The notes beneath the pieces are model-generated. The model was not told where the DNA came from. It did not search any database and saw only the letters and a list, made by a program, of their open reading frames with translations. Both the position numbers and the translations under genes were made by a program. From positions 62,001-126,000 of the forward strand of contig NZ_CAMVDO010000003.1 of the NCBI RefSeq assembly GCF_947166265.1: a stretch of 64,000 nt of DNA. The letters are read 5' to 3'. Every line of letters starts with the position of its first letter. The first letter of the stretch is position 1. Below, piece after piece: positions 5,511 to 45,373 of this stretch. The DNA comes from an uncultured Fibrobacter sp. (GTDB lineage Bacteria > Fibrobacterota > Fibrobacteria > Fibrobacterales > Fibrobacteraceae).

Positions 5511-5660
5511 AGATCCTTCGACTTCGCAACTTCGTTGCTTCGCTCAGGATGACACCTGTAACCTGACACCTCATACCTCACGGCCCTTCGGCAGGCTCAG
5601 GGACCTTATTTCGGTTAGCGAGCTTGCGAACGTTCTCTCGTCTTTAGTCTCTCGTCTGTA
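5510..5660. repeat. Repeat-dense intergenic spacer (three dispersed families)
   Basis: 5510-5554 carries the GATCCTTCGAC...CTCAGGATGACAC family. 5581-5608 carries the hairpin with core CTTCGGCAGGCTCA and arms GGCC/GGACC. 5633-5658 carries TCTCGTCTTTAGTCTCTCG, the same unit as 13514-13544. No gene was seen between 5511 and 5678. Confidence 0.75.
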
Positions 5661-13513: not shown

Positions 13514-13707
13514 AGACGAGAGACAAAAGACGAGAGACGAGAGAAAATAGTAGTTAGGGCCAAGTCCCTGCCTGCACTGAGCATGACCGTCTAGCTGAAG
13601 TAGACTGTGGTTAGGAATAAGGTCCCTGAGCCTGCCGAAGGGCCGAAGTGACACGAACGCGTCATCCTGAGCGAAGAGCCGCAAGGCTCGCAGTCGAAGG
13701 ATCTCTA
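13514..13707. repeat. Repeat cluster in a gene-free spacer
   Basis: The 467-base gap 13444-13910 holds no gene that can be supported. It contains ACGAGAGACAAAAGACGAGAG (13514-13544, also at 5633), the hairpin GGTCCCTGAGCCTGCCGAAG at 13621-13644, and the TCATCCTGAGCG...GTCGAAGGATCTC family at 13661-13707. Confidence 0.75.
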
Positions 13708-13910: not shown

Positions 13911-15500
13911 CTAGTCCTGGAGACAACGAACCGAGAAGGCGTGCCCCTTACTGTAGTAGTAAACCTTAACATCATTAAGGATACAGTAAAGGTCCATATT
14001 GTACGCACCGTTGCTAAAGCCCTCAGAGGCACTCCAGAAGGAAGTGCAATTGCCTCTGTTACTAAATACGCCGTAATCAAACCTATAGCCAGCAGGGAGC
14101 GCGGAGAACCCAAAGGAATCCGCACCATTGCCATTATTCCATCCGAATGTAGACTTAAGCTCATTACCTACTGTAGATAATCCGCCAACAGCCGTAATTA
14201 AATTTTCATATTCTGTTTTACTTGGTAAATGCCATCCATTAGGGCATACACCTTGGATATTTTCCGACGGCAACGAACATAAATGATCGTAACCACATTC
14301 GCTTTCTGACCTACCTACTGCTGCAGCCCACGTATAAAGACGACCGAACTTGTTACAATTGTTTTCATCGTTGTTGTAGCAGAAGCTAGAGTCCGTTTCG
14401 AAGTTCAAGTTTTCCGCCATCCAAACTTGTTCTCCTATTTTCACAGTCTTATAAGTCTGACCGTCACGGGAATCCGTCATAGAACCTAAGGTCACTTCGA
14501 CAAGCTCAGTGACCTTTGAGGAACTGCTGCTGGACGAAACAATCTTCTTGCTTGCAAAGGAAGGGCTAATTCCTGAGATATACTGTTCGTTACGGGTTAC
14601 AACCACATAGGGATTGACGGGAATTACATTGTCCACAAAATCCCCAAAATCAATATCCTCCAAAGGCATTCCCGCATAGTCTGCCCCGTCTTCTGCAGCA
14701 ACATGCGGAGACCAAGACCAATCACCCGATGTCGCAGACATCCGCTTTTTAGCTGTAGTTCTCAACGATTCGCAGGTTTTGTATCCGTCATTAGTAATTC
14801 CCGAAGTAAATGCGATGTCTAACCGAACTCGGGAATGTGATTCAAGAACAAGGGGGCCAAGAGGCAAAGGAATATAGTAGGTATAGCGGGATTCCCCCGA
14901 TTTCTTTAGATAATCCAGGCGCATCGGTAAAGACTTACGCATTAAGTTTCGTATATCTAAATCACTTTCGCACGGTATGTTAAATCCCGCTGAATCGTAT
15001 TTCTGGCAGATATCCACATCCACAAGAGTCGCGCACTTTTCCATTTCTTCGGGTAAAGCGTCTAGGTACAGGCGAAGGGTCAAACTGTCAATCTTTTCAT
15101 CTTCATTGTTTTCGACATACAAGTGCAAGAAGTCCAGACCAGAAAAATCATACTGGTAGGCGTATACACGTACATCCAATTCATCCAAAGAAGAGAACAA
15201 TTCTTTGATTCCCCTTCTAGAGGCAAGCGCAGAATCCGAAGAAGCACTTGCCGCTACAAGCGCAGCCGATGATTCCAATGCACGCTCCGCCTCCCAATCG
15301 TCAAAGTCATCTTTCATCTGCTCGACATAGTCTGTACAAGCAGACAAACAGACAAGAGAAAGGAAAAGTAAAACCGTCCATAGACCCTCGCCTACGCGAG
15401 GGTGACGAATTTTTACGCAAGCGTGACGAGTATTAACACGAGCGTGACAATTCGAAAAAGATGTTCCTAACCACCAACCACTATTTACTAACCACTTCAT
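13911..15500 (-). CDS. FISUMP-domain lipoprotein with repeat-derived N-terminus
   Basis: 529 residues. The C-terminal domain (about 340-529) is the Fibrobacter major paralogous domain: GSMTDSRDGQTYKTVKIGEQ, WMAENLNFET, GRLYTWAAAVG, CPNGWHLPSKTEY, FSALPAGYR, FWSASEG and terminal VRCLQD. The lipid-attachment Cys is residue 55 (LVCLSAC), giving an abnormally long n-region encoded by dispersed repeats (15385-15497). The start is well supported by GGGAGGGG just before the ATG. The middle (60-330) is an unrecognised region ending in a Ser-run linker that itself contains a hairpin repeat (14488-14517). It probably sits on the outer membrane; the molecular role of FISUMP is unknown. It starts 10 bases after the stop of the upstream gene, so it is likely cotranscribed. 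Confidence 0.85.
   Translation of the reverse strand: MKWLVNSGWWLGTSFSNCHARVNTRHACVKIRHPRVGEGLWTVLLFLSLVCLSACTDYVEQMKDDFDDWEAERALESSAALVAASASSDSALASRRGIKELFSSLDELDVRVYAYQYDFSGLDFLHLYVENNEDEKIDSLTLRLYLDALPEEMEKCATLVDVDICQKYDSAGFNIPCESDLDIRNLMRKSLPMRLDYLKKSGESRYTYYIPLPLGPLVLESHSRVRLDIAFTSGITNDGYKTCESLRTTAKKRMSATSGDWSWSPHVAAEDGADYAGMPLEDIDFGDFVDNVIPVNPYVVVTRNEQYISGISPSFASKKIVSSSSSSSKVTELVEVTLGSMTDSRDGQTYKTVKIGEQVWMAENLNFETDSSFCYNNDENNCNKFGRLYTWAAAVGRSESECGYDHLCSLPSENIQGVCPNGWHLPSKTEYENLITAVGGLSTVGNELKSTFGWNNGNGADSFGFSALPAGYRFDYGVFSNRGNCTSFWSASEGFSNGAYNMDLYCILNDVKVYYYSKGHAFSVRCLQD
14488..14517. repeat. Hairpin repeat inside the FISUMP linker
   Basis: Plus strand AAGGTCAC-TTCGACAAGCTCA-GTGACCTT. 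Six-base arms pair perfectly, and the core equals that of the copies at 13621 and 39245. It is read in frame as KVTELVEVTLG between the Ser run and the FISUMP domain. Confidence 0.8.
15385..15497. repeat. Stacked dispersed repeats in the 5' end of the FISUMP gene
   Basis: 15469-15497 is the TTAGTGGTTGGTGGTTAG family (also at 32665 and 40716). 15385-15450 has three tandem near-copies of CGTCACGCTTGCGT plus the hairpin CCCTCGCCTACGCGAGGG. Together they encode residues 2-39 of the protein. Confidence 0.8.
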
Positions 15501-18255: not shown

Positions 18256-19821
18256 CTACCCTTGCGAGGTAGCGGCGAAGGTCAGGTTCTCGTAATTCTT
18301 GATGGCAAGGTTTAGACGGTATTCATTCGGGAACAGGCAAACGAGGTTGCGTTCCTTGTCCATCATGCAGTCCATCGCGTATTCTTCGGCGAACTTGGCG
18401 ACATCCTTTTCGGGGCCAGACACCCAGCGGATTCCGTGAGCGGGCACGCGGTCCAGCGACACGTCGGCACCGTATTCACTCTGCAGGCGGAACTTGAGCA
18501 CGTCAAACTGCAACTCGCCCACCACGCCAATCACAGGAATAGCGGACTTGAGCGGTTCGTACAGCTGGGTTGCGCCTTCTTCGCTCAGTTCGGCAAGGCC
18601 CTTCGCCATCTGCTTAGACTTAAGCGGGTTCAGGAGCGTTACGCGGGCGAAGTGTTCCGGAGCAAAATCCGGAATGCCGGTAAAGTTGATTTTTTCGCCG
18701 TCAGTCAACGTATCGCCAATGCGGAACAGTCCCGGGTCGTTAATACCCACGATATCGCCCGCCCAGGCGTGGTCGATGACTTCCTTGTCTTTCGCGAGGA
18801 ATGCCGTCGGAGCTGCCAGGCGAATTTCGCGGCCCGTGCGCACGTGGTAAACCTTTTCGCCACGTGTAAAGCTGCCCGAACAAATGCGCAGGAATGCAGT
18901 ACGGTCGCGGTGCTTGGGGTCCATGTTCGCCTGAATCTTGAACACGAAGGCGCTGAAGGCGTTTTCGTCGGGGCTCACCGGGCGCTTGTCAGTTTCACGC
19001 ACCATCGGAGGCGGCGCAAGCTTTGCAAAAGCGTTCAACAGCTGACGCACACCGAAGTTGTTCACCGCAGAACCAAAGAACACGGGGCACATTTCGCCCT
19101 TCAGGAACTTTTCGTGGTCGAACGGATCCATGGCACCGGTCACCATCTCGTATTCTTCCTTGAACTGAGCAACCCAGTTTTCGCCGCACATTTCCACAAG
19201 GCGCGGATCGTCCGGGCCTTCCATCTGGATGATTTCCTGATGGCCTTCTTCTTTATTGAAGGTGTGGAAGGTGTTTTCGGCAATGGAATACACGCCCTTG
19301 AACAGCTTACCCACGCCAATGGGGAGCGTAAAGGGGGCGACCTTGATTTTCAGGATGCTTTCAATTTCGTCGAGCAGGTCAAGCACGTGGCGGCCATCCA
19401 AGTCCATCTTGTTGATGAACGTGATGATGGGCGTATGGCGCATGCGGCACACATCCATGAGCTTGATAGTCTGCTTTTCTACACCGTTCACGCTATCGAT
19501 CAGCACAAGGGCGGCATCCACGGCGGTGAGGGCGCGGTAGGTATCTTCGCAGAAGTCCTGGTGCCCCGGGGTATCGACCAAGTTGAACATGCAACCTTCG
19601 AACGGGAAATTCAGCACGGAACTCGAAACCGAAATACCACGCTGCTGTTCAATCTTCATCCAGTCACTTACCGTGTAGCTGCGGTTTGCCTTGGCGCGCA
19701 CGTGGCCCGCTTCGCGAATCACGTTTCCGTACCACAGGAACTTTTCGGTGATGGTGGTCTTACCCGCGTCAGGGTGGCTGACAATAGCAAAAGTGCGGCG
19801 TTTTTCGATTTCGGAATTCAT
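18256..19821 (-). CDS. prfC: Peptide chain release factor 3 (RF3)
   Basis: 521-residue translational GTPase that recycles RF1/RF2. G1 HPDAGKTTITEKFL, the switch I region with EQQRGISVSSSV, G3 DTPGHQDF and G4 NKMD are visible, followed by the beta-barrel domains and the RF3 C-terminal domain (VVGELQFDVLKFRLQSEYG). The ATG at 19821 is chosen because the family starts MNSEIEKRRTFAIVSHPDAG; an in-frame extension to 19863 would be encoded by a hairpin repeat. The promoter box TATATTTG lies at 19898-19905, so two repeat copies occupy the leader between promoter and start. Confidence 0.95.
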   Translation of the reverse strand: MNSEIEKRRTFAIVSHPDAGKTTITEKFLWYGNVIREAGHVRAKANRSYTVSDWMKIEQQRGISVSSSVLNFPFEGCMFNLVDTPGHQDFCEDTYRALTAVDAALVLIDSVNGVEKQTIKLMDVCRMRHTPIITFINKMDLDGRHVLDLLDEIESILKIKVAPFTLPIGVGKLFKGVYSIAENTFHTFNKEEGHQEIIQMEGPDDPRLVEMCGENWVAQFKEEYEMVTGAMDPFDHEKFLKGEMCPVFFGSAVNNFGVRQLLNAFAKLAPPPMVRETDKRPVSPDENAFSAFVFKIQANMDPKHRDRTAFLRICSGSFTRGEKVYHVRTGREIRLAAPTAFLAKDKEVIDHAWAGDIVGINDPGLFRIGDTLTDGEKINFTGIPDFAPEHFARVTLLNPLKSKQMAKGLAELSEEGATQLYEPLKSAIPVIGVVGELQFDVLKFRLQSEYGADVSLDRVPAHGIRWVSGPEKDVAKFAEEYAMDCMMDKERNLVCLFPNEYRLNLAIKNYENLTFAATSQG

Positions 19822-19830
19822 GGATAACTT

Positions 19831-19885
19831 AAGGTTCGTTTCGGCAAGCTCAACGAACTTCAAGATCCCTGAGCCTGCCGAAGGG
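19831..19885. repeat. Two hairpin repeats in the prfC leader
   Basis: 19831-19860 is AAGGTTCGT-TTCGGCAAGCTCA-ACGAACTT with a 7-bp stem. 19864-19885 is GATCCCTGAGCCTGCCGAAG plus GG. Both share the TGAGCYTGYCGAA core. Confidence 0.8.
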
Positions 19886-34135: not shown

Positions 34136-35047
34136 ATGACAAAAAGATTTTCGCACGATTCGTATGCTCGCTCGGTGCTGAAGGATCCTGTTCGCACAGC
34201 GGAACTTCTTCGCCTTGCATCTCGTAAAAACAGTAACCTTGCTCAGTTTCTTGCAACGGTGAATCTCGACACTTTACAAGAAATTTCCGAAGCATTCAGC
34301 GACACGGTTACCCACGGTGACGGCGATTTGGCATTCACCGTAAAGATTGCAAGTGACGAGCCGAAGCAAGCTGAACTTCTTGTCGGCTTTATCGAAGAAC
34401 ACAAGAGCTATCCCGATTCGGGAATCATTCCGCAGTTGGTAAAGTACTGGTTTCAGATTATGTTCCGCAACCAGAAGAACATCCCGACCGTCGCTGTCGT
34501 TCTCTACAACGGAAAGGACCCCTGGCACATCGAAAAGGAGGTAATGTACCCGAACTATCCCGAATACTATCACAAGATTGGATTGCCCTTCCTGTTGGAA
34601 GTCGTTGACGTAAGCGATATTTTCAAGGACGAGGAAATTCCGCAGATTTCGCCAAAGATCGCGCTTGCGCTGGTCGCTTTGAAGTATGTTTTTAATGGGG
34701 AAAAGCTCAAAAAACATCTGAAGGCCGCCATGGCCGGGCTTAAGTCACTCCCCCGCGACGAGGCAGAAGAATTTTTGTCCCAAACATTTGTATATTTAAA
34801 GCAGTGGTTCAACGGCGAGGCCAAGGAGCAGTTTAAAATGGATTTCAAGAAGTGCAGCGAAGTTTACGGCTACAAGTCCATCGCCGAAGTTGAAGAAGAA
34901 GAAAACGAGGCCAATCTTCAGAGTATCGCCATTGGTTTGCTAGAAGATGGCGTTCCCGATGACGTTATTATGCGCCGATTCAACTTCACGCACGAAACCA
35001 TTATTAAGCTCAAAGCCCAAATTGCCAAAGCCACCTGTTCTGCATAA
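34136..35047 (+). CDS. Rpn-family recombination-promoting nuclease / putative transposase (PD-(D/E)XK)
   Basis: 303 residues, apparently full length. N-terminal [21 protein letters not shown], then the nuclease core: [17 protein letters not shown] (acidic metal ligands) and [16 protein letters not shown], where E-x-K is the catalytic pair. [16 protein letters not shown] follows, typical of YhgA-like transposase_31 proteins. The C-terminal helix [20 protein letters not shown] is a usual tail. Members of this family cut DNA and raise recombination in E. coli. No terminal inverted repeats or target duplication were seen around the gene. It has its own promoter box and a GGAG Shine-Dalgarno. Confidence 0.82.
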
Positions 35048-35192
35048 GTTCTTCTAGGGCAACGATATTTCAATCGGGAGAAAACTCCCAAGAGTACGTG
35101 TTTGAGCTAATGTCATGACAAAAAGGAATTATTTTTCGTTTGAGTCTTTATTCATTTCAATCACAAATAAATCATATTTTATGATTTACAAA

Positions 35193-36098
35193 TCACTCTA
35201 CCTTTTTTATTGACATATAATCATCATCTAATTCTTGAGCACGTTTAATAAATTTTTGGACATTATCCTTATTCCACTGATTACAAACAACAACATCAGC
35301 GCCTTCAACCACGAGTACATCTTTTAAATTACAGAACCACCTTTTTTCATCATTCGCTTTTGCATCGGACAAATAATTAACAACGCCAAAGGAGCCCTGC
35401 AAGCCCCTGTTAAATTTAGCTTGCAAATCGTTAAATTTAATCTTTGGATTTTTTAACACAAAATCTCTAACAATTTCTAGAACAAGACGATTTTTAGCAT
35501 ATTTTTTTCCATTCCATATATATTTCGTGTAGTCCCTTGACAACTTCTGCGGTCTAAATATATCTGTAAAAACAAACGTATCTGTTCCGTTTTTAAAACG
35601 ACGTAATTCAATTCCAAAAACAGGAATTTCAACAGAATTTTTATCCAAAAGACTATTTGTCACTTTATAATCATCTATCAATTTTGTTTTCACATCAAGC
35701 GAAACATCTTCTGCCGCAAGGATACCTATAATTTTTTTATTTTCTAGTGGAAGATGAACTTTTTCATTTAATTTCTGCAAATTTTCAGAAGACAAAGACT
35801 CAAGATAATCTTTCAGTTGCGACTCTGCAACATCATTTATAGATTTAAGTTTCAATTCTATTACCGCCAAGGTCTCATTATTATAATTTGCAACAATGTC
35901 AAGACGACCATTACTTCGTTTTCGACCTTTAGATAAATGACATTCACATTCCATATATTCAGGCGCAGGAAAATTTTCATCTTGAAAGTCTAGGACTTCT
36001 TCGTTTTCAAGTAGAAAACTTTCCATTGCCAATTCTTTGGTGAAAGGAAAATTTTCTAAACGACAATTATTCAGAACAGCTTTTTTAACAAAATTCAT
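35193..36098 (-). CDS. PD-(D/E)XK nuclease-like protein of unknown role, AT-rich
   Basis: 301 residues. Residues 65-100 contain RSNGRLDIVANYNNETLAVI followed by ELKLK: an Asp and an E-L-K pair arranged like a PD-(D/E)XK nuclease core. The C-terminal part (about 185-300: YIWNGKKYAKNRLVLEIVRD, then RRFNC-free FNRGLQGSFGVVNYLSDAK and VVVCNQWNKDNVQKFIKRAQ) recalls a winged-helix-like domain appended to restriction-type proteins, from memory only. The gene and its flanks (35050-36130) are clearly richer in A/T than neighbours and use many AAA/TTT/ATA codons, suggesting recent transfer. Single gene; no methyltransferase or toxin partner is adjacent. Confidence 0.65.
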   Translation of the reverse strand: MNFVKKAVLNNCRLENFPFTKELAMESFLLENEEVLDFQDENFPAPEYMECECHLSKGRKRSNGRLDIVANYNNETLAVIELKLKSINDVAESQLKDYLESLSSENLQKLNEKVHLPLENKKIIGILAAEDVSLDVKTKLIDDYKVTNSLLDKNSVEIPVFGIELRRFKNGTDTFVFTDIFRPQKLSRDYTKYIWNGKKYAKNRLVLEIVRDFVLKNPKIKFNDLQAKFNRGLQGSFGVVNYLSDAKANDEKRWFCNLKDVLVVEGADVVVCNQWNKDNVQKFIKRAQELDDDYMSIKKVE

Positions 36099-36137
36099 TT
36101 TTACTCTCTTATCAAAAGTATCTTAGTTTGTTAAAAC

Positions 36138-38705
36138 TCAGTCCATTACACAACGAATTGAGGACCCGTAGATCTTGTGGAAGCCGCCGCTGAGACTCGC
36201 AAAGTCCGCAGCCAAGCACCAATTGTTGGCGTAATAGATATTGACTTCAGTTGCACTCCAGAAGTAGGCGCGCTTGCCGACTTCGGGGAAATAGCCATTT
36301 TCGTAGTAGCCAACAGGGAGCGCCGAGAACCCGTAGGCGTCGGTCGCATCGGGCCAGTTCGCCACGCCCTTTGCCTGCATCGCATAGGGGCTGCTACCCA
36401 TGGCGGAATAAAGCGTATTCCATTCGCTGCTGCTGGGTAGGTGCCAGCCTTCGGGGCAAATTCCACGGACTGTGCCAGTAAGTCCACAAGTCTTTTCTTT
36501 GCCACATTCTTCTTCGGTTTTGCCTACCGCCGCCGCCCACGTATAGAGTCGACCGTACTTGGCACAGCTATCTGGTTCATTTTTATAGCAGAAACTTTGG
36601 CCTTCGACTTCGTAGTTCAGGTTCTCTGCCATCCAGTTCTGGGTCTTGATGCCGATGGTCTTGTAGGTCTTGCCGCCATAAGTCAATGTGCCTACGTTCA
36701 GATTTTCAAAATCATACTCCCAGCCTTTTGCACTACATTTGTAATAGGAATACTGTTTGTGAGGGATATATAGTTCACCAGAATTATGGCTTGTGCACCC
36801 CTTGCCATAACTGATTTCCGTGCTATTAGCCATCCTAAACTTACCATTATCGCACACATATACAGTATCAGTAACATTGCCAGAGAACAGAGTTCCATCT
36901 TCAGAACAAGTCTTTTTGTAGGTGTCCTTTTCTAGTGTAGTTGCATACCGCCAAGCCTTCTTACTCATTGCGTAGATGTAATAGACGGATGAATTAATTT
37001 GTCCCTTACGAACTTCGCCATCAAAATCACCAGCACCCCACCCCAAGGTATCTTTTTCGATATCCGTAGCAGCACGCCATCTGTACAAACTAGCGTCATC
37101 GCAGATAAAGCGGATTTTGTTAGCCGCATCCGTATAAGAGGTCGCATAATATTTCTTAGAGTCTTTATTCGGAACGTGCTTAACCAAGCCCACGCGAACA
37201 CTATCGCTGCCGCACACGCCAAGGCCAAGCTGTTCGCTCCAGAACCTGCGGACAAACTTTTCGAAGTCGGGAACGTTTCCGCCACCGAGGCCCCAGCCCT
37301 TCACGTTGCTGCGGAAGGTCGCAAGCTTACTTTTCGAAGTTGAAACATTCGAATCAATCGTGGCTACCCAGTCGGCAATTTCAGCTTTCTTTGCCGCATT
37401 ATCCCAGGTGCCGTCTTCGGCCAAATCGTTTGCCATATTCGTCAACAGCACCGAAAGTTCGGTTTCGCTGGAATCCCGTTGCAAAAGAATCGAAATGGCA
37501 AGGAGGGCAGCATCGGCGTCCGTCTTCCCGAACACATCGAGGTCTTCGGATTCCGCCTTGATTTGGCTCGCATCGATATGGAACGCCGCGAGAATTTCAG
37601 CCTGCGCCTGTCGTTTGGCTGCCCGCACCGTCATCTTTTCTTTCGTCACCAAGTAATACACACGTTCTTTTTCGAGGTGCGTCAGCAGGTTCACGTTTGC
37701 GGATTTACGCATAAGCATATTGGTGTAAGCCTGCAGCTGGATTGACGTATTTGTCGGTTGCCCCGTGATCTCGTTACGGTACTTACCATCTACAACAAGC
37801 AAGGCGTATTGGCTCACCAAATTACGCGAGTTAAACTTGTAGCGGCCATCATCACTTGTGATTTCACTCGTAAAGTTACCGTTCGTCTGCTTCAGGGTGC
37901 GGCCATCCGTAAGTTCATACAGATAGACCCTCGAACCCGTCAGGAAAGGTCCCTTCTGCGAATAGCCCGCCAAGGAATCCAGCGAAATCGCAACCTTCTC
38001 GGAGTCCAGTTCCAAAGTATCGCTAGAAGTCGTGTCTACAACCGCACCACCGGTTCGCAAGTTCAAAGTCATCGACTTGTCGCCGCACTTGATAGTTGCC
38101 GAAGAATCCGTCTGAGCGGCAATAGAACAACCAACACCATTTTTGCCATCGGTTCCGTTTTTACCATCGGCCCCCGCATCACCCTTGTCGCCCTTCGCGC
38201 CATTTAGCACCACGCCAATGCTGTCGCCGTTGCAAACGATCTTGATCCCCGAGCCATCCTTAAGCTCCTTGGTCGTGCAACTGAAATCTCCGCCATTCAA
38301 GTAGACTGTATCGCCCGCCACAACTACCGTATCACCCGCCAAGAACACGGTATCCTTCGCGGACTCCTTAGTCGCAAACCACTTGCCGTCTACGCAGACG
38401 CGTACCGAAGATTCCCCTTTCACAAGCGCCTGTTCGCCCTGATTGTCCTTGGTGCATTTGGGAAGATCCTTGACCGACTCGACAATTTCCGTGCCGCCAC
38501 TCGCCACTTCTACGATTTTTTCGGTGGTAGTGTTTTCGCCACAAGCCGTGAGGAGGATTGCAATAAAGATTGCAGCAAGAGATCCTTCGACGCAACGGCC
38601 CTTCGACAAGCTCAGGGACCTTAATTGTGAAAATCCCATAGCAGAGTTCAAAGATGATATGGTAAGGGGTAACTTTGATACAATGGGGCGAACGATTTTC
38701 ATCAT
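36138..38705 (-). CDS. Large multidomain FISUMP lipoprotein with collagen-like segment
   Basis: 855 residues. Lipid Cys at 55 (AILLTACGEN), with residues about 28-42 encoded by a dispersed repeat. A beta-rich region follows, containing a short collagen-like Gly-X-Y run (about 168-190, GAKGDKGDAGADGKNGTDGK). Next is a carboxypeptidase-regulatory-like beta-sandwich (about 245-325, YSQKGPFLTGSRVYLYELTD), then a helical region with many Ala/Lys, then small repeated Cys-bearing motifs where RWRAATDIEKDTLGWG and WRYATTLEKDTYKKTCSEDG echo each other. The C-terminal FISUMP domain (about 680-855) has WMAENLNYEV, GRLYTWAAAVG, CPEGWHLPSSSEW, FSALPVGYYENGYF and RCVMD. It probably is a large cell-surface lipoprotein; function unknown. 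Confidence 0.85.
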   Translation of the reverse strand: MMKIVRPIVSKLPLTISSLNSAMGFSQLRSLSLSKGRCVEGSLAAIFIAILLTACGENTTTEKIVEVASGGTEIVESVKDLPKCTKDNQGEQALVKGESSVRVCVDGKWFATKESAKDTVFLAGDTVVVAGDTVYLNGGDFSCTTKELKDGSGIKIVCNGDSIGVVLNGAKGDKGDAGADGKNGTDGKNGVGCSIAAQTDSSATIKCGDKSMTLNLRTGGAVVDTTSSDTLELDSEKVAISLDSLAGYSQKGPFLTGSRVYLYELTDGRTLKQTNGNFTSEITSDDGRYKFNSRNLVSQYALLVVDGKYRNEITGQPTNTSIQLQAYTNMLMRKSANVNLLTHLEKERVYYLVTKEKMTVRAAKRQAQAEILAAFHIDASQIKAESEDLDVFGKTDADAALLAISILLQRDSSETELSVLLTNMANDLAEDGTWDNAAKKAEIADWVATIDSNVSTSKSKLATFRSNVKGWGLGGGNVPDFEKFVRRFWSEQLGLGVCGSDSVRVGLVKHVPNKDSKKYYATSYTDAANKIRFICDDASLYRWRAATDIEKDTLGWGAGDFDGEVRKGQINSSVYYIYAMSKKAWRYATTLEKDTYKKTCSEDGTLFSGNVTDTVYVCDNGKFRMANSTEISYGKGCTSHNSGELYIPHKQYSYYKCSAKGWEYDFENLNVGTLTYGGKTYKTIGIKTQNWMAENLNYEVEGQSFCYKNEPDSCAKYGRLYTWAAAVGKTEEECGKEKTCGLTGTVRGICPEGWHLPSSSEWNTLYSAMGSSPYAMQAKGVANWPDATDAYGFSALPVGYYENGYFPEVGKRAYFWSATEVNIYYANNWCLAADFASLSGGFHKIYGSSIRCVMD
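38579..38620. repeat. Composite dispersed repeat in the FISUMP signal peptide
   Basis: GAGATCCTTCGACGCAAC joined to the hairpin GGCCCTTCGACAAGCTCAGG GACC. On the minus strand it is read in frame as RSLSLSKGRCVEGSL. Confidence 0.82.
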
Positions 38706-38833
38706 CGGATAATCCTCAAGTTATTGCAGGGGAAAAAATTTATTTCGAATATAGCTTATTTTACACATCGTTCTTTAAGACTCATTTTTTATTTCTAATT
38801 TTCTAGGAGTAGACAACTATTAGAATTCCATGT

Positions 38834-39565
38834 ATGGTCAAAAAGAACGAACAGACTGAATCGATTTTGATGCTTACTTGCGAGCATGCGAGCAACAATT
38901 TGCCCGCAGTATTTAAAAATGCAGTTCCTGCAGAAATATTGAAGACTCACCGCGCCTACGACATCGGAGCCGTTCAAGTTTTCCGCAAGCTGGTGAAATT
39001 TGCGAAGCCCGAATTCTACAGCGAAGGGAAATATTCGCGGCTGTTCGTGGACTTGAACCGAACCCTTACCAACAAGAGTGCCTTCAGCGATTTCTATAAG
39101 CAACTTGAAGTCCGCGACAAAGCCGCAGCGGAAAAAGCGAAAGCACAAGCTACCGCCTATTGGACCGAATATCGCGCCGCGATTGAAAATTACGTGGAAG
39201 CTACACTTCGGCATGGTTCGCTTCGGTCCTTCAACAAGCTTTCCGGCCCTTCGACAAGCTCAGGGACCTCAAAGCCAAGCATAGTACACCTAGGCATTCA
39301 CAGTTTTACGCCGGAATTGAACGGCAAAGTCCGCAACACCGACATCGGAATTCTCTACGACCCGAGTCGCCCGCAAGAACGCGCCTATGCAAACGTCATC
39401 AAGGCAGAAATCAAGCGACTCTACCCCGCCATGAAAGTACGATTCAACTACCCGTACAAGGGCTCTTCCGACGGCCTCACCACAACGCTCCGCAAGAAAT
39501 TCGGCCCGCAATACGAGGGAATCGAGATTGAGATAAATCAGAAGTTATTGAGCTATGAGCGATGA
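38834..39565 (+). CDS. N-formylglutamate amidohydrolase-family protein with repeat-encoded insertion
   Basis: 243 residues. The family core is visible: MLTCEHASNNLPAVF, HRAYDIGAVQVFRKL, YSRLFVDLNRTLTNKSAF, HLGIHSFTPELNG, IGILYDPSRPQE and YKGSSDGLTTTLRKKFG. These enzymes are zinc amidohydrolases with the conserved His/Glu/Arg positions seen here. The physiological substrate in an organism without an obvious histidine-degradation cluster is unclear. Residues about 131-146 (RSFNKLSGPSTSSGTSKP) come from two tandem dispersed repeats and lie in a surface loop just before HLGIHSFTP. No partner gene in operon. Confidence 0.83.
   Translation: MVKKNEQTESILMLTCEHASNNLPAVFKNAVPAEILKTHRAYDIGAVQVFRKLVKFAKPEFYSEGKYSRLFVDLNRTLTNKSAFSDFYKQLEVRDKAAAEKAKAQATAYWTEYRAAIENYVEATLRHGSLRSFNKLSGPSTSSGTSKPSIVHLGIHSFTPELNGKVRNTDIGILYDPSRPQERAYANVIKAEIKRLYPAMKVRFNYPYKGSSDGLTTTLRKKFGPQYEGIEIEINQKLLSYER
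39225..39268. repeat. Two tandem hairpin repeats inside a coding sequence
   Basis: First degenerate copy GGTCCTTCAACAAGCTTTCC, then GGCCCTTCGACAAGCTCAGG GACC. Both are read in frame without breaking the protein. Confidence 0.78.
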
Positions 39566-39615
39566 GGTCGGCGCAAAGCGCCTTTGAGCTCGTTTCACTT
39601 TGAGTCTTCTAAACA

Positions 39616-39647
39616 AAAAAGTTCTAGGATTATTCCTAGAACTTTTT
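39616..39647. terminator. Bidirectional terminator between convergent genes
   Basis: AAAAAGTTCTAGGA-TTAT-TCCTAGAACTTTTT, a perfect 14-bp stem with A/T tails, between the amidohydrolase-family gene and ddh. Confidence 0.93.
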
Positions 39648-39686
39648 CACTCAAAGGCTCCCTTCGGGGAGCCGTGCTCATACCGA

Positions 39687-40670
39687 CTACAAGCAATGAG
39701 CTCTCAGGTCTTCGTCGCTCAAGGTGCTGAGGTATGCAGGCGGAACGTCGAGAACGGTCTTACAACCGGTCTGACCGTTAGCCTTCATACGCAGCGCTGC
39801 GCGGGCGTAAGCCACGAGAACGCTCGTCGTGAATTCCGGGTTGGAATCGAGCTTGAGGCTGTATTCGATCACATGCGTGTGTTCCTTGTTCATGCCGGTC
39901 TTGCCGGTACGGATCACGAAACCACCGTGAGCGAGGCCGCTGTGGTTCTTGTTGAATTCTTCTTCGCTGATGAAGTTGACCGTGGTGTCGTATTCATCAA
40001 AATAGTTCGGCATCGTCTTGATGGCGTTTTCGATGTAGGCCTTGTCGGCACCTTCTTCAGCAACCACATAAACGAGACGAGTGTGCTTCTGACGAGTGGT
40101 GAGTTCCGGCATGGAACCGCTACGCACAGCTTCGAGAGCGGATTGCACCGGGCAGGTGTACTGCTTCGCGTTCTTCACACCCTTGATACGGCGAACAGCG
40201 TCGCTGTGGCCCTGGCTAACGCCCTTGCCCCAGAACGTGTAGTCCTTGCCTTCCGGAAGGATGGACTGAGCATACACGCGGTTCAAGCTGAACATACCCG
40301 GGTCCCAACCGACAGAGATCATAGCAATCTTGTTTGCGCCCTTGGCAGCAGCGTCAACAGCAGCGAAGTGCTGCGGAATCTTGGCGTGCGTGTCGAAGGA
40401 GTCGATCACGTTGAACATAGAAGCGTACTTCGGGGTGAGCACCGGCAGATCCGTAGCAGAGCCACCGCAGATGATGAGCACGTCCACCTTGTCCTTCCAA
40501 GCTTCCATTTCAGAAACGTTCAACACCGGAACGCCAGCCGTCTGAATCTTGACCGTAGAGGGGTCACGACGAGTGAAAACAGCGACGAGTTCCATATCGG
40601 GAGCCTGCTTCACAGCGCATTCCACGCCGCGACCGAGGTTACCGTAACCGAGAATAGCAATCTTTGCCAT
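39687..40670 (-). CDS. ddh: meso-Diaminopimelate D-dehydrogenase
   Basis: 327 residues. NADP-dependent one-step conversion of tetrahydrodipicolinate to meso-diaminopimelate for lysine and peptidoglycan. N-terminal Rossmann motif AILGYGNLGRGVECA, FTRRDPS, ICGGSATDLP, SFDTHAKIPQHF, SVGWDPGMFSLNR and FWGKGVSQGHSDAVRRI, all typical of Ddh, with PNYFDEYDTTV and the C-terminal LDVPPAYLS. An AAGGAT lies before the ATG and a TATATTTT box 31 bases upstream. This pathway variant is restricted to some lineages, including Bacteroidetes relatives. Monocistronic. Confidence 0.95.
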   Translation of the reverse strand: MAKIAILGYGNLGRGVECAVKQAPDMELVAVFTRRDPSTVKIQTAGVPVLNVSEMEAWKDKVDVLIICGGSATDLPVLTPKYASMFNVIDSFDTHAKIPQHFAAVDAAAKGANKIAMISVGWDPGMFSLNRVYAQSILPEGKDYTFWGKGVSQGHSDAVRRIKGVKNAKQYTCPVQSALEAVRSGSMPELTTRQKHTRLVYVVAEEGADKAYIENAIKTMPNYFDEYDTTVNFISEEEFNKNHSGLAHGGFVIRTGKTGMNKEHTHVIEYSLKLDSNPEFTTSVLVAYARAALRMKANGQTGCKTVLDVPPAYLSTLSDEDLRAHCL

Positions 40671-40701
40671 AATAATATCCTTGTTAAAAATTTTTGCGTA
40701 G

Positions 40702-40709
40702 AAAATATA
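40702..40709 (-). promoter_or_regulatory. Promoter -7 box TATATTTT of ddh
   Basis: 31 bases before the ATG at 40670 on the minus strand, leaving room for a Shine-Dalgarno. Confidence 0.5.
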
Positions 40710-40715
40710 GGAAAA

Positions 40716-40745
40716 GTGGTTAGTGGTTGGTGGTTAGTGGTTAGG
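40716..40745. repeat. 'GGTTAGTGGTTGGTGGTTAG' dispersed repeat
   Basis: Directly upstream of the ddh promoter box; same family as 15469-15497 and 32665-32697. Confidence 0.78.
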
Positions 40746-40772
40746 GATGCGAGAGAAATTCATATCAAATTG

Positions 40773-40850
40773 GTAGGGGGAAGGCTCCCCCTCGGCGGCA
40801 CTGCGTTGCCACCTACCCCCTCGCCTAAGGGGACACCCCCTAAAACCCCC
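40773..40850. repeat. G/C-run intergenic element, copy 2
   Basis: GGGGGAAGGCTCCCCCTC ... CTGCGTTGCCACCTACCCCC ... GGGGACACCCCCTAAAACCC, aligning end to end with 13732-13803. Confidence 0.75.
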
Positions 40851-40854
40851 GGCC

Positions 40855-41529
40855 TCATAGCTCCCAATCTTCTTTTTTTATACAACGAAGAGAATAGTAA
40901 CCATTGGATGTGGATATAGTATTTTTTTCTTCTTTGTTGGTTAAATCAACATCAAACAACTTCATACTTCCATACAAATCGTATGTTGAAGTAATCCATT
41001 GTCTATATCTTCCCAAATCGTGAAAAATGTACCCTATGGGCTCGCCTGTACTTGGATTTTCTTTAACATAAGCCATTCCGCCAAATAAAGAAACGTCCAT
41101 ACATTCGCTATTTTTGAAATGTTTGAGACCATCCATTTGATCAACGATTTCATTCCATTCAGCCAAGGTGGGAACGCGCCATCCATGGGGACAAATGGAA
41201 TCAATGATATCTAGGTTAAAAGTTCCGAAGTTTTTTTGTTTATCGTTCATATACTGTACAGAATACAGCCTTCCATAGATGTCGCAATTGCTTTGCTGTT
41301 CATCATAGCAAGTGCTAGTTTCCGCTGGGTAATTCAGGTTTTGGTCCATCCACACTCTATCGCCAATGGTGATGTATTTATACACTTGACCATCTCGAAC
41401 ATCTTGGAATGTTCCACGCCCGCTTTCTGGACATACTTCAGATGCATCGAAACTGGAGGATGAGTCTGTGCAAGCGGTCATTAATTCCAAGCCCGCAAGC
41501 AACACAAGTAAGAAATTATTCTTTTTCAT
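40855..41529 (-). CDS. FISUMP-type lipoprotein, short form
   Basis: 224 residues. Lipoprotein signal MKKNNFLLVLLAGLELMTAC; the start at 41529 is chosen over an in-frame ATG at 41565 because it gives a normal n-region. A very short linker (DSSSSFD) leads to a divergent FISUMP domain: GTFQDVRDGQVYKYITIGDR, WMDQNLNYPA, CDIYGRLYSVQYMND, CPHGWRVPTLAEW and YYSLRCIKKED. The FSALP block is altered. It starts 36 bases after the dut stop on the same strand, so it may be cotranscribed with dut. Function unknown; surface-exposed by analogy. Confidence 0.8.
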   Translation of the reverse strand: MKKNNFLLVLLAGLELMTACTDSSSSFDASEVCPESGRGTFQDVRDGQVYKYITIGDRVWMDQNLNYPAETSTCYDEQQSNCDIYGRLYSVQYMNDKQKNFGTFNLDIIDSICPHGWRVPTLAEWNEIVDQMDGLKHFKNSECMDVSLFGGMAYVKENPSTGEPIGYIFHDLGRYRQWITSTYDLYGSMKLFDVDLTNKEEKNTISTSNGYYSLRCIKKEDWEL

Positions 41530-41565
41530 TTTTCTAAATAATCTTGAGGTTGCCGATTTAAGCAA

Positions 41566-42000
41566 CTAAATTCCTGTGCTGCCAAATCCGCCACGGTCGG
41601 CACCTTCAAGAACACCTTCTTCGAAGGTGAGCGTTGGTTGGATTTCCATGATGCGGAACTGAGCGATGCGGCTCCCCTTTTCGATTACCACGTCACGGGT
41701 GGCATAGACAGGCATTTTCCACCAGTCGTTTGCACCACAGTAGCTAGAATCGACCACGCCCACCGAATTCACCTGCAAAATGCCAAAATTCTTGAAAGTG
41801 GAGCTGCGCGGGGCAATGTGCGCCTCGTAGCCTTCAGGAAGCTTCATCGCCACCCCCAGATGAATCAAGCGGAACTCGCCCGCCTTGAGCGTCACGGTCT
41901 CTGCCGCGGCGAGGTCAATCCAGTCGGATTTGCCGCCAACGTAAGTGAGTTTCGGTATGGAATCGTCGAGATACTGAATTTTAATCGTCTGAAAAGGCAT
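41566..42000 (-). CDS. dut: dUTPase
   Basis: 144 residues of trimeric dUTPase type; hydrolyses dUTP to dUMP. Motifs: DWIDLAAAE (I), APRSSTFKNFGILQVNSVG (II), VVDSSYCGANDWWKMPV (III, longer than usual), KGSRIAQFRIM (IV) and RGGFGSTG (V). The start at 42000 is supported by a TATATTTG box exactly 4 bases upstream and by alignment from MPFQTIKIQYL; the in-frame extension upstream would lie across that promoter. No Shine-Dalgarno is possible, so the mRNA is probably leaderless. Confidence 0.9.
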   Translation of the reverse strand: MPFQTIKIQYLDDSIPKLTYVGGKSDWIDLAAAETVTLKAGEFRLIHLGVAMKLPEGYEAHIAPRSSTFKNFGILQVNSVGVVDSSYCGANDWWKMPVYATRDVVIEKGSRIAQFRIMEIQPTLTFEEGVLEGADRGGFGSTGI

Positions 42001-42004
42001 ATTG

Positions 42005-42012
42005 CAAATATA
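42005..42012 (-). promoter_or_regulatory. Promoter -7 box TATATTTG, 4 nt before dut
   Basis: Minus strand TATATTTG, CAAT, ATG; preceded by a T-run. Confidence 0.65.
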
Positions 42013-42162
42013 AAAAAAGGGATAATATTCCAAATTGGAATAATTGTTTCGAGAAAAAAATGAGTTAAAAGACAAAAAAATGTACCATTTCCAAAAAAAA
42101 GTGATAGATTTTGTTTATAAAAACAAACAAACGCTATTTTACCATATTTTGAAGGAGAAAAT

Positions 42163-42951
42163 ATGAAAAATCTGTTTTTGAAGGTACTCGGCACCTCCCT
42201 GCTGTATGCAGCAACGACATTTGCACAGTCGGCAAACGAAATCGCCAAGAAAGTCCACGACTTGCCCAGCGGAAAGACCTCTTCTGCCACCATTTCGGTC
42301 ACCCTGATCGACAAGAACGGCAAGACCCGTAACCGTGAAATCGCCTCTTACACCATGAAGGACGGTACGACCGACAAGACAGTTCTCGTGTTCAAGACGC
42401 CTCGCGACGTGGCAGGCATCAGCTACCTCACCTACGACTATCCCGACAAGGCCGACGGCTCCACGGTCGATAGCGACAGCTGGATTTACCTCCCTGCCAT
42501 GAAAAAGGTGCGCCGCGTTTCCGGCTCCAGCAAGGACGACGATTTCCAGGGTACGGACTTTACCTACGATGACTTGGGTAACCGCAGCCTTTCCAAGGAC
42601 AACTTTACGATTCTCGGCGAAGAAAAGGTGAACGGACTTGACTGCTGGATTCTGGAAGCCAAGGCAAAAGACACGAAAGCGAAAGTGAGCCGTCGCGTTT
42701 CATGGATTGACAAGAAAACCTACGTGATGCAGAAAGGCGAATTCTACGACAAGCAGAACCGCCTGCAAAAAACGCTCACCTGCGAAAACATCAAGCAGGT
42801 CAACGGGTACTGGACCACGCTAAAAATGACCATGACCAACGTGCAGACCAACCACAAGACCGTCTATGAAATCAACAACCTGAAATACGACGAAAAAGTG
42901 AACGAAAGTTACTTTACCGTGAGCGCATTGGAACGCGAACAGGTCAAGTAG
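42163..42951 (+). CDS. LolA-like outer-membrane lipoprotein-sorting protein
   Basis: 262 residues with signal peptide (ends TTFAQS). The mature part is the LolA-like beta fold associated with MMPL exporters: VFKTPRDVAGISYLTYDYPD, SDSWIYLPAMKKVRRVSGSS and the diagnostic FQGTDFTYDDLGNR segment, then NGLDCWILEAK and TYVMQKGEFYDKQ. It is periplasmic and probably carries a lipid between the inner-membrane permease and the outer membrane. A strong GAAGGAG Shine-Dalgarno is present. First gene of a four-gene envelope operon; spacing to the permease is 22 bases. Confidence 0.87.
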   Translation: MKNLFLKVLGTSLLYAATTFAQSANEIAKKVHDLPSGKTSSATISVTLIDKNGKTRNREIASYTMKDGTTDKTVLVFKTPRDVAGISYLTYDYPDKADGSTVDSDSWIYLPAMKKVRRVSGSSKDDDFQGTDFTYDDLGNRSLSKDNFTILGEEKVNGLDCWILEAKAKDTKAKVSRRVSWIDKKTYVMQKGEFYDKQNRLQKTLTCENIKQVNGYWTTLKMTMTNVQTNHKTVYEINNLKYDEKVNESYFTVSALEREQVK

Positions 42952-42973
42952 ATTTCATCAGGAGGGATGAATC

Positions 42974-45373
42974 ATGAATGTCGCGAGGCTTAATCAATTC
43001 TTCGGCAAAGTTGGTCGCTTTCAGTTGCGCCATCGCATCAAAATCCTTATCGCTCTTCTCGTCGTTACGGTCATTTGCAGTTCCGGCTTAAGTCAATTTG
43101 CGCTTGCCACCGGAGAAGCAGACTGGTTCAGCGAAACCGATGACATCACGCGAAACACAAAGAAATACGAAGATACCTTCGGAAACCTGAATGGAGTCGG
43201 AGTTCTTCTTGTAATGCAGGGCGAAGGCGATGTCTTTAGCGAAGAAATGCTGCACGTCATCGACAAAATCGGGACCCGAATGAAGGACGAGATCCCGTTT
43301 GCCGACCGACTCACCTCGATTATCGACGTCGACATTCCTGTCGGCAACGAAGAAGGTTTCGAAATCAAGAAACCTTACGAAAACGGCATTCCATCAGATT
43401 CTGCAGAGCTTGCCAAGGCGCGCGCACTCGTCATGCGCGGGAGCGAAAATACGAACGCCCTCATCAACGCGCTTGTAAGCGACGACGGACGCGAAACATG
43501 GATTTCCCTTTCGTTGCTCCCTTTCAACGAAAAGAACCTTGACAAAAGATTTAGCGACGAATCGGATGATTACGCCGTCAACGTCGGCTACAAGCTGATG
43601 GAGATTATCGAAAGCGAAGAATTCCAGAACAAGGGTTTCAAACTCTATGGCGGCGGAATGCCCTATGACAGCGCCAACGAAGACCGCTACGAAGTACCGG
43701 AGTATGGCGTCAGGGTTCTCTGCAGTATCGGTGTCATGATCCTCTTCTTGGCATTGTGCCTACGCAACATATTTGGCGTGGTCGTTCCGGCGGTAGCAAC
43801 CCTCAGTGCAATAGCATCTGTTTTTGGTGCAATGGCTTATTTTGGTGCAAAAGCAGATTCTGCCCTCGTGACATTGCCGGTGGTTCTCGGCATGGCCCTT
43901 GCCGTTGGCTATTCGGTACACTATATCAAGATGTTCAAGCTGTTCTTTAGGCGTACCGGGAAACGCAAGGAATCCGCCATCAAGTGCGTCGAGGAATGCG
44001 GATGGCCGGTGCTGTTCACGGTTCTTACGACAATGGCCTCCTTTGTCAGTTTCCTATTCGTCAACATGAAGCCCCTAGAATGGATGGGTTTAACGTCCGC
44101 CTTCGTGGTTCTCGCCATTTACCTCTACGTGACAATCCTGATTCCGACATTGCTTTCGTTCGGCAAGGACAGCGCCCCCAAAGCCTCTTGCGAAAACGGT
44201 GCAACCCTGCTCGACACGAAATTTTCGGCATGGTCAGAATTCGTGTACAAGAGAAGGAAAACTTTCATTATTGTCGCAGGCCTGATTATCGTCGCCTTCA
44301 TTCCTGGAATGTTCAAGATTACCGCACAACTCGACTATCTGACTATAACGGGCGACAAGATGCACTACATTCGAGAAGTCAGGGAATTGCTCACCCACAA
44401 GCTCGGCAACCAGTATAGCTACACGGTCATGATTTCTTACGACGAAGAAGGCGCTTTCAAGAAGCCCGAAAATATGCAGGCTCTGTTGAAGCTGGAAGAT
44501 TATCTGGGAACGCTTTCGCTTACCAAGTGGTCGGGCGGCAAGGCACGCGTAACATCAGCAACCAGCATCTTGAAAGAAATGAACCGAGCCTTGAACGAAG
44601 GCAAGGACTCTTTCTACACGGTTCCCGAAGACGAATACGTGCTTGCACAGCTGATGGAACTTTCTTCCATTGAAATGCGTCAGGATTTCAGTGAAACGAT
44701 GGATGAAGACTTCAAGACGACCGTAGTCAACGTGGATATGACCCAGTTCACCACAGAAGAGGCTCTTGCTAATATGGATTCTTTGAAAGTGAAACTCGCC
44801 GAACTGTTCCCCGGTGCAAAGTACACCCTGTTAGGCGACATGATCCGCTATTCCGAGATGAGCAACCGCATTATATTTGGCGGCATCAAGTCCTTCGGAT
44901 TTTCGCTCCTGATTATCGGCATAATGCTGATACTTGCTTTCTCAAGCATCAAACTCGGACTGATTGGCATGATTCCGAACGTGGCTCCGGTTATTTTGGT
45001 GGGTGGCGTAATGGGCTACTTTAACTTTGCCCTGGATTTCAGCACGGTCACCGTAATGCCCATGATTCTAGGTATTGCCGTAGACGACACCATTCACCTA
45101 ACGACTCACCTAAAGATGCGCTATGAACAGTGCGGTTCTTGCGCAAAGGCGATGAACATCACCTTCCGCGAGATTGGATCGACCATGTTTTTAACAACGG
45201 TCATTCTGTGTTCCATGTTCAGCGTCTACCTGTTTAGCCCGATGCGTTTCTTAATGGTCCTTGGAATACTCATTATCGTAGGCCTTTCCGGAGCTCTGTT
45301 TGCAGACTATACGATCACCCCTGCACTCTTGCATGTGACAAAGCCCTTTGGAAAGGAAAAGGAGGAAGCATAA
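42974..45373 (+). CDS. MMPL/RND-superfamily permease
   Basis: 799 residues with the duplicated RND layout: membrane helix 1 (about 23-42), a large periplasmic loop, five helices (about 245-400), then the same order again from about 425. Characteristic stretches: VVLGMALAVGYSVHYIKMFK in the first half and MPMILGIAVDDTIHLTTHLK in the second, the latter carrying the Asp-Asp of the proton relay region. The family exports lipids and hydrophobic compounds. GGAGGG precedes the ATG. It is flanked by a LolA-like protein and an outer-membrane barrel, so the three probably form an envelope-spanning lipid transport route. Stop and next start are separated by one base. Confidence 0.9.
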   Translation: MNVARLNQFFGKVGRFQLRHRIKILIALLVVTVICSSGLSQFALATGEADWFSETDDITRNTKKYEDTFGNLNGVGVLLVMQGEGDVFSEEMLHVIDKIGTRMKDEIPFADRLTSIIDVDIPVGNEEGFEIKKPYENGIPSDSAELAKARALVMRGSENTNALINALVSDDGRETWISLSLLPFNEKNLDKRFSDESDDYAVNVGYKLMEIIESEEFQNKGFKLYGGGMPYDSANEDRYEVPEYGVRVLCSIGVMILFLALCLRNIFGVVVPAVATLSAIASVFGAMAYFGAKADSALVTLPVVLGMALAVGYSVHYIKMFKLFFRRTGKRKESAIKCVEECGWPVLFTVLTTMASFVSFLFVNMKPLEWMGLTSAFVVLAIYLYVTILIPTLLSFGKDSAPKASCENGATLLDTKFSAWSEFVYKRRKTFIIVAGLIIVAFIPGMFKITAQLDYLTITGDKMHYIREVRELLTHKLGNQYSYTVMISYDEEGAFKKPENMQALLKLEDYLGTLSLTKWSGGKARVTSATSILKEMNRALNEGKDSFYTVPEDEYVLAQLMELSSIEMRQDFSETMDEDFKTTVVNVDMTQFTTEEALANMDSLKVKLAELFPGAKYTLLGDMIRYSEMSNRIIFGGIKSFGFSLLIIGIMLILAFSSIKLGLIGMIPNVAPVILVGGVMGYFNFALDFSTVTVMPMILGIAVDDTIHLTTHLKMRYEQCGSCAKAMNITFREIGSTMFLTTVILCSMFSVYLFSPMRFLMVLGILIIVGLSGALFADYTITPALLHVTKPFGKEKEEA

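Follow-up and report, generated by a model that had tools for sequence, protein, structure and literature searches.

A REP-like DNA repeat read in frame in a variable loop of a Fibrobacter N-formylglutamate amidohydrolase

The window (the whole 64,000-nucleotide stretch of an uncultured Fibrobacter sp. genome that was analysed) contains a gene for N-formylglutamate amidohydrolase (FGase), the product of which matches PF05013 over residues 12-238 (72.4 bits, E 7.5e-20, above the Pfam gathering score of 28.9 bits). All five enzyme motifs (CEHA, SRLFVDLNR, HLGIHSFTP, NYPYKG and IEIEINQ) are found, in agreement with an earlier sequence-only reading that had called the motifs on both sides of an inserted repeat intact. 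As that reading had also proposed, the repeat lies in frame inside the enzyme, as SGPSTSSGTS directly ahead of HLGIHSFTP. The sequence at 39247-39268 is CCCTTCGACAAGCTCAGGGACC. The features of the locus and the other copies of the repeat in the window are collected in Table 1.

Table 1. The FGase gene, its insert and further copies of the repeat in the window.
Feature	Position	Strand	Remarks
FGase gene, bearing the insert; 243 aa	38834..39565	+	ORF; PF05013
Intact copy, GGCCC-TTCGACAAGCTCA-GGGACC, in frame	39244..39270	+	Encodes SGPSTSSGT; exact 22-nt core at 39247-39268
Decayed partial copy, CGGTCCTTCAACAAGCT, 3' arm lost	39224..39243	+	17 nt, 88% identical, 20-nt spacing
GGTTCGCTTCGG, possible remnant arm of a third copy	39215..39226	+	Arm also in the copies of G002, G003 and G018
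Exact copy antisense to lipoprotein gene 36138-38705	38596..38620	+	Encodes RSLSLSKGR; core at 38599-38620
Copy with another stem (GGTCAC/GTGACC), in gene 13911-15347 (-)	14490..14514	+	Encodes KVTELVEV
Copy with stem GTTCGT/ACGAAC, at the predicted start of gene 18256-19863 (-)	19831..19860	+	
Copy outside predicted genes	5584..5605	+	
Copy outside predicted genes	13621..13642	-	
Copy outside predicted genes	19864..19885	-	Inverted relative to the copy at 19840

The description of the insert as two tandem hairpin repeats was overstated, as there is one intact and one decayed copy. The left unit is not a full hairpin: it matches only the first 17 nt of the right unit and has lost the 3' arm. 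A tandem array was accordingly rejected: Tandem Repeats Finder reports no array at this site, and the repeats present are one intact and one partial unit. Judging from its letters, GGTTCGCTTCGG may be an arm of a third copy. As a DNA hairpin, the intact FGase copy is not unusually stable in its context (z -0.31), and the isolated consensus hairpin is likewise not unusually stable (z -0.70); the stem is supported by covariation among the copies, described below, and not by the stability of the FGase copy alone. An AlphaFold model of FGase built from one sequence was poor (pLDDT 45.7), with a helix at residues 96-126, a strand at 151-158 and an unstructured stretch between them; a surface position of the insert and a cytosolic location of the enzyme are accordingly putative. 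The nearest solved structure by sequence, 2odf, gives an alignment that covers both sides of the loop and not the loop itself. Just downstream of the gene, a perfect 14-bp inverted repeat with a 4-nt loop (39616-39647) is probably an intrinsic terminator.

The insert belongs to a high-copy family with the core CCTTCGACAAGCTCAGG. In the source genome, a draft of 89 contigs, the 17-nt core is found 199 times at up to 3 mismatches, against 9 for the reversed control, while CCCTTCGACAAGCTCAGGGACC is found 6 times in the window (up to 3 mismatches) against 0 expected from 100 shuffles. The consensus is 5'-TAAGGT-CCC-TGAGCYTGYCGAA-GGG-CC-3', of which FGase reads the complementary strand; outside genes it takes the form GGCCC-loop-GGGACCTTA, with GG(C)CC as the flank on one side, and the conserved part spans about 27 nt. 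The exact loop, TTCGRCARGCTCA, occurs in 82 copies within 841 kb of the genome. In these, each of the three base pairs flanking the loop is of the Watson-Crick type in most copies (76, 75 and 74 of the 82, compared with 53, 45 and 54 expected from column composition), and C-G, G-C and T-A versions of the stem all occur. The pairs are thus exchanged with pairing kept while the 13-nt loop stays fixed, which identifies a covarying 3-bp stem. Few copies are paired with one another: the 111 loop matches include 18 pairs of neighbours no more than 200 bp apart. At up to 2 mismatches, 36 other members of the genus have 0 to 71 copies (median 10), compared with 144 in the source genome. No Rfam family was found at either copy in 35000-43000 at E values up to 1.

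Several copies in the window lie in or against genes. The exact copy situated 650 bp from that in FGase falls in the N-terminal signal region, MGFSQLRSLSLSKGRCVEGSLAAIFIAILLTACG, of a predicted lipoprotein (38596-38705), in which the LLTAC following RSLSLSKGR is presumably the lipobox; from its position, the repeat would supply basic residues ahead of the hydrophobic stretch. The product of gene 13911-15347 carries a Fib_succ_major domain. Gene 18256-19863 may in truth begin downstream of the copy that sits at its predicted start.

Across the 841 kb, which comprise the window and stretches L190-L229, genes were called by our own hexamer-based finder rather than a standard program. The 82 exact-loop copies divide into 31 within predicted genes, 50 outside them and one at a gene edge, in a sample that is 87% coding. 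About half of the stretches making up this sample were picked partly for holding copies; in the consecutive stretches L190-L209, which were not so picked, 12 of 33 copies are inside genes. Of its six frames, the repeat has a stop in one and leaves the other five open. The in-gene copies use four of the five open frames: VPELVEG-like (14 copies), SLSLSKG-like (6), LRQAQGP-like (6) and PSTSSGT-like (5), with PFDKLRD-like at 0. Several of those near N termini may lie upstream of the true start. Hosts identified by Pfam include truB, hemC, a cobA-hemD fusion, metH, ftsK, uvrD, feoB, znuA and an ArsP permease, among others. In the ArsP-HMA permease (L192:12621-14177, minus strand), two copies sit in a Cys/His-rich linker, as DCCCDGPSAGSGTCDCC and HGKDGELAEPPCKCGH, and ZnuA (L221:6319-7434) has one copy in a His-rich loop.

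We next compared FGase orthologues. A search matched 27 of 60 genomes, from which 25 congeneric loops were used; G009 (a stop codon and a split match), G023 (a fragment) and the second G013 paralogue were left out. The in-frame TAG and split match of the G009 gene possibly mark a decaying gene. Between the end of the KFV helix (NYV here) and HLGIHSFTP, the loop is hypervariable and of differing lengths. The repeat-sized gap anticipated by the sequence-only reading is present, the distance from NYV/KFV to HSFTP being 42 aa here and 30 aa in repeat-free members of the genus such as G034, G029 and G012; it is 21 aa in G010 and G005. The repeat family is found at this loop in 5 of the 25 orthologues, in both orientations and several frames: in G000, read as PSTSSGT; twice in G018, one copy per orientation; in G032, read as SLRQAQRP; and in the other orientation in G003 and G002. 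By comparison, 59 of 10,700 random segments of genus DNA of the same lengths contain the family. The G013 loop holds a more decayed look-alike that falls below the family criterion. The carriers are dispersed over the gene tree and require at least three kinds of insertion, one of which could be common to G000 and G018.

These comparisons bear on whether the residues are a translated repeat at all. The loop might be a fast-evolving Ser/Thr/Gly linker that resembles the repeat by chance or through convergence at the protein level, and its hypervariability in all FGase orthologues is what such a linker would show. However, the match is at the DNA level and exact over 22 nt, with an exact copy at 38599-38620 and 199 copies in the genome, and other species carry the family at the same place in other frames and orientations, giving unrelated residues; we regard a mere linker as highly implausible. 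Misplacement of the repeat in the FGase gene during assembly deserves equally little credence: the genome is a draft in many contigs, but the repeat is much smaller than a sequencing read and leaves the frame intact, and congeners whose genomes were assembled independently have copies at the same place. The residues ahead of HLGIHSFTP are therefore almost certainly the translated copy of a small, REP-like and mobile-looking DNA repeat. Among the 25 orthologues, repeat-type residues occur only together with the nucleotide repeat. Distant genera with the same residues but without the repeat, which would have spoken against this origin, did not appear, although this test had little reach, with an FGase match in 0 of 23 genomes outside the genus.

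The insert also appears to be tolerated, as had been suggested, because selection on the rest of the gene is of the ordinary purifying kind. Outside the loop, comparison with 13 relatives gives a dN/dS of about 0.08 to 0.14 for 12 of them and of 0.04 for the thirteenth, for which dS is near saturation, and the values for FGase with the insert resemble those of pairs without it. Both filled and empty sites are found among close relatives in FGase and metH orthologues. For metH, 24 loops were extracted from 30 loci of 37 matching genomes, six loci being missed by the anchors; G000, G016 and G021 have a copy, and the other 21 loops lack one. The metH loop is longer by a net 18 nt, which falls short of the 27 nt of the element. 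Loops also differ in length for other reasons, and none of the loci compared offered a clean contrast between an empty and a filled site with identical flanks from which the exact ends of an insertion could be read.

Repeats of the CGTC type, such as GTCATTGCGAGCG...GCAATC, mostly take the place of this family in the truB and hemC loops of other Fibrobacter species. We extracted 29 TruB loops from 30 loci (36 matching genomes) and 29 HemC loops from 30 loci (34 matching genomes), and one or other family is present in 14 of 29 and 17 of 29, respectively. The CGTC-type pattern was also run on random segments and shuffles, and 64 of 10,700 random segments contain it, alongside the 59 for the repeat family; since the pattern was written after viewing those loops, its counts in TruB and HemC are descriptive. 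Different species have different REP-like families in these loops, and the resulting peptides include VILSEAERSRRIQ, CHCERSEAISN, VIASEAKQSI and CHCEGDSPKQSL. The source genome has a CGTC-like family of its own, with 66 pattern matches in 841 kb, and 15 of the 82 repeat copies lie within 100 bp of a CGTC-type repeat, compared with a mean of 4.6 and a maximum of 10 in 200 random placements. The truB and hemC loops have the look of serial landing sites.

The repeat extends well beyond the genus. Among the matches listed, the exact 17-mer is found in groups of Pseudomonadota, Actinomycetota, Chloroflexota, Bacteroidota, Patescibacteria, Armatimonadota, Eremiobacterota, Treponema, Calditrichaceae and others, with phylum names that we in part assume from the names of the organisms. 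In 25 carrier genomes, the 13-nt loop has 1 to 163 copies, with at least 10 in 23 of them, whereas reversed controls gave 0 or 1 per strand. In 53 copies from other organisms, which were not shaped by the search bait, the three stem positions pair in 50, 47 and 46 cases against 31, 35 and 20 expected. Stems and flanks vary between lineages. In Sphingomonas G072, most copies form inverted pairs in which the two loops start about 35 to 80 bp from each other; in the 20 places examined, nearly all pairs are bounded by CCGTTCG and CGAACGG. Plasmid matches, largely in sphingomonads and with a best listed E of 0.03, are suggestive only. Phage matches, among those listed, were of 18-22 nt with E values of at least 1, mostly in one group of Pseudomonas phages, and were read as chance.

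Copy orientation follows GC skew. The TGAGCYTGYCGAA strand coincides with the positive-skew strand for 62 of the 82 copies (p 3.7e-6); among copies outside genes the figure is 38 of 51. In a logistic fit to 81 copies, log-likelihoods were -45.3 with skew, -52.6 with gene direction, -44.9 with both and -56.1 for the null; skew thus accounts for orientation, with almost no further contribution from gene direction. In Pedobacter G075, 18 of the 26 single copies on one contig obey the rule, which is weak support. For matches of the CGTC type, the GTCAT strand is on the positive-skew strand in 46 of 66 cases, and these follow the gene strand too.

Instead of being a selfish mobile element, the repeat might be kept for a host function, as a chromosome polarity signal, an RNA-processing site or a protein-binding site, with the in-gene copies as tolerated sites; an orientation that follows GC skew, as in polarity signals, and the near constancy of the loop across phyla are in keeping with this. 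A copy number that runs from 0 to 144 within one genus, stems and flanks that differ between lineages and the 31 of 82 copies inside predicted genes speak against it, making a host function rather improbable. Enzymes of the IS200/IS605 type insert on single strands in a replication-linked manner, and in our analysis the strand bias fits insertion of that kind. The lagging strand is reportedly mentioned in PMC6006769.

The repeat could be a classical REP whose mobiliser, a RAYT (REP-associated tyrosine transposase, PF01797), has disappeared in the meantime or is encoded at another place in the genome. The REP-like size, loop and pairing, together with the REPIN-like inverted pairs in Sphingomonas, speak for this, and an 87-aa Y1_Tnp fragment does persist in the source genome. 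Yet no repeat copy lies beside this fragment, and the repeat has no GTAG tag. A PF01797 match is missing in 13 of the 25 carrier genomes, including the repeat-rich G060 (150 copies), G064 (159) and G072 (70), and 0 of the 30 RAYT loci, which come from the other 12 of the 25, have the repeat. We therefore consider mobilisation by a RAYT unlikely.

With considerable confidence, we favour as the best overall explanation a translated, mobile-looking repeat that has settled in a permissive loop. The element would spread as a folded single strand at replication through a factor not linked to the repeat, a route that we hold to be somewhat less likely than not. Copies that break genes would be purged by selection, and frame-keeping copies in variable loops would persist, helped by the five open frames. 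The FGase loop would then be a permissive landing site at which insertion, decay and renewed insertion follow one another. In a bolder version, towards which we are somewhat sceptical, the repeat would define an untagged REP superfamily with a constant 13-nt loop, a hypervariable covarying stem and flanks specific to each lineage, present in about a dozen phyla and moved by an unlinked, non-PF01797 mobiliser acting at the fork; in Fibrobacter it would, alongside repeats of the CGTC type, recolonise the same protein loops time after time. If this were true, such loops would be serial landing sites that continuously turn non-coding repeats into protein.

Palindromic repeats in frame within genes are known. 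Di Nocera et al. 2013 (PMC3733652) define two superfamilies of REPs, GTAG and CGTC, as high-copy, dispersed, short and mostly intergenic palindromes that are also found in frame inside genes, including those for tRNA pseudouridine synthase B and UvrD/REP helicase; CGTC REPs are given as lacking a dedicated transposase, and untagged families are said to need study. The present repeat is likewise a dispersed, high-copy palindrome that is partly in frame in genes. In contrast to the GTAG superfamily, it is without a terminal GTAG, having the flanks GG(C)CC and GGGACCTTA, and without association with a RAYT gene (REPtron). It also differs from the CGTC superfamily, which has terminal CGTC/TGTC/CCTC, a stem initiated by A-T and a CCA-like tail, in that its flank is TAAGGT and its stem G-C rich, and from both in its constant 13-nt loop and variable 3-bp stem. 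Different REPs at about the same recB site in two Xanthomonas species, described in PMC3733652, are a precedent for site reuse, which here concerns a large share of orthologues. Fibrobacter goes unmentioned in that text.

Rickettsia palindromic elements (RPE), as far as the available text of PMC2229807 and PMC3733652 describes them, lie in frame in genes for conserved proteins and their product is tolerated; a guanylate kinase with an RPE is active, and shorter classes are mentioned besides those of 105-146 bp (PMC2229807). The repeat shares the location in frame in such genes (FGase, truB, hemC, metH and others), although at about 27 nt it is shorter than these rickettsial elements of 105-146 bp. 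In TnpAREP/REP systems, according to the part of PMC8266576 consulted, a folded single-strand hairpin with conserved loop or stem irregularities beside a short tag is handled strand-specifically; the repeat resembles these in its hairpin, conserved loop and strand specificity but has neither a GTAG tag nor a linked tnpA-REP gene.

The inverted pairs in Sphingomonas G072 are REPIN-like, copies in G000 being mostly unpaired. REPINs were reportedly described by Bertels and Rainey in 2011 (PMC3116915). In a REPIN, two inverted REPs form the mobile unit and a RAYT mobilises it; G072 has no PF01797 match. Searches of open literature text gave no paper for 14-mers of the repeat, 18 papers for its 8- to 12-mers, which judging by title are unrelated, and two unrelated papers for its peptide forms, figures and supplements being beyond such searching. 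For REPs in Fibrobacter they returned only a Caldithrix genome paper, and for REPINs in Sphingomonas nothing relevant by title. The basic principle of in-frame palindromic repeats is in print (RPE, REP-decorated proteins), and the finding, in essence confirmed, is larger than first described. Across dozens of related species, the same loops can be seen filled, decayed, refilled or empty. This comparative series of non-coding repeats turning into protein allows tests of the frequency with which proteins take up short, arbitrary segments and of the places where they do so. The occurrence of the repeat across phyla without a known moving enzyme makes the search for its mobiliser a concrete problem. 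A second high-copy 14-mer family, ATCGCACCCCTCGC, with 19 copies in 841 kb, is unrelated to both families studied here.
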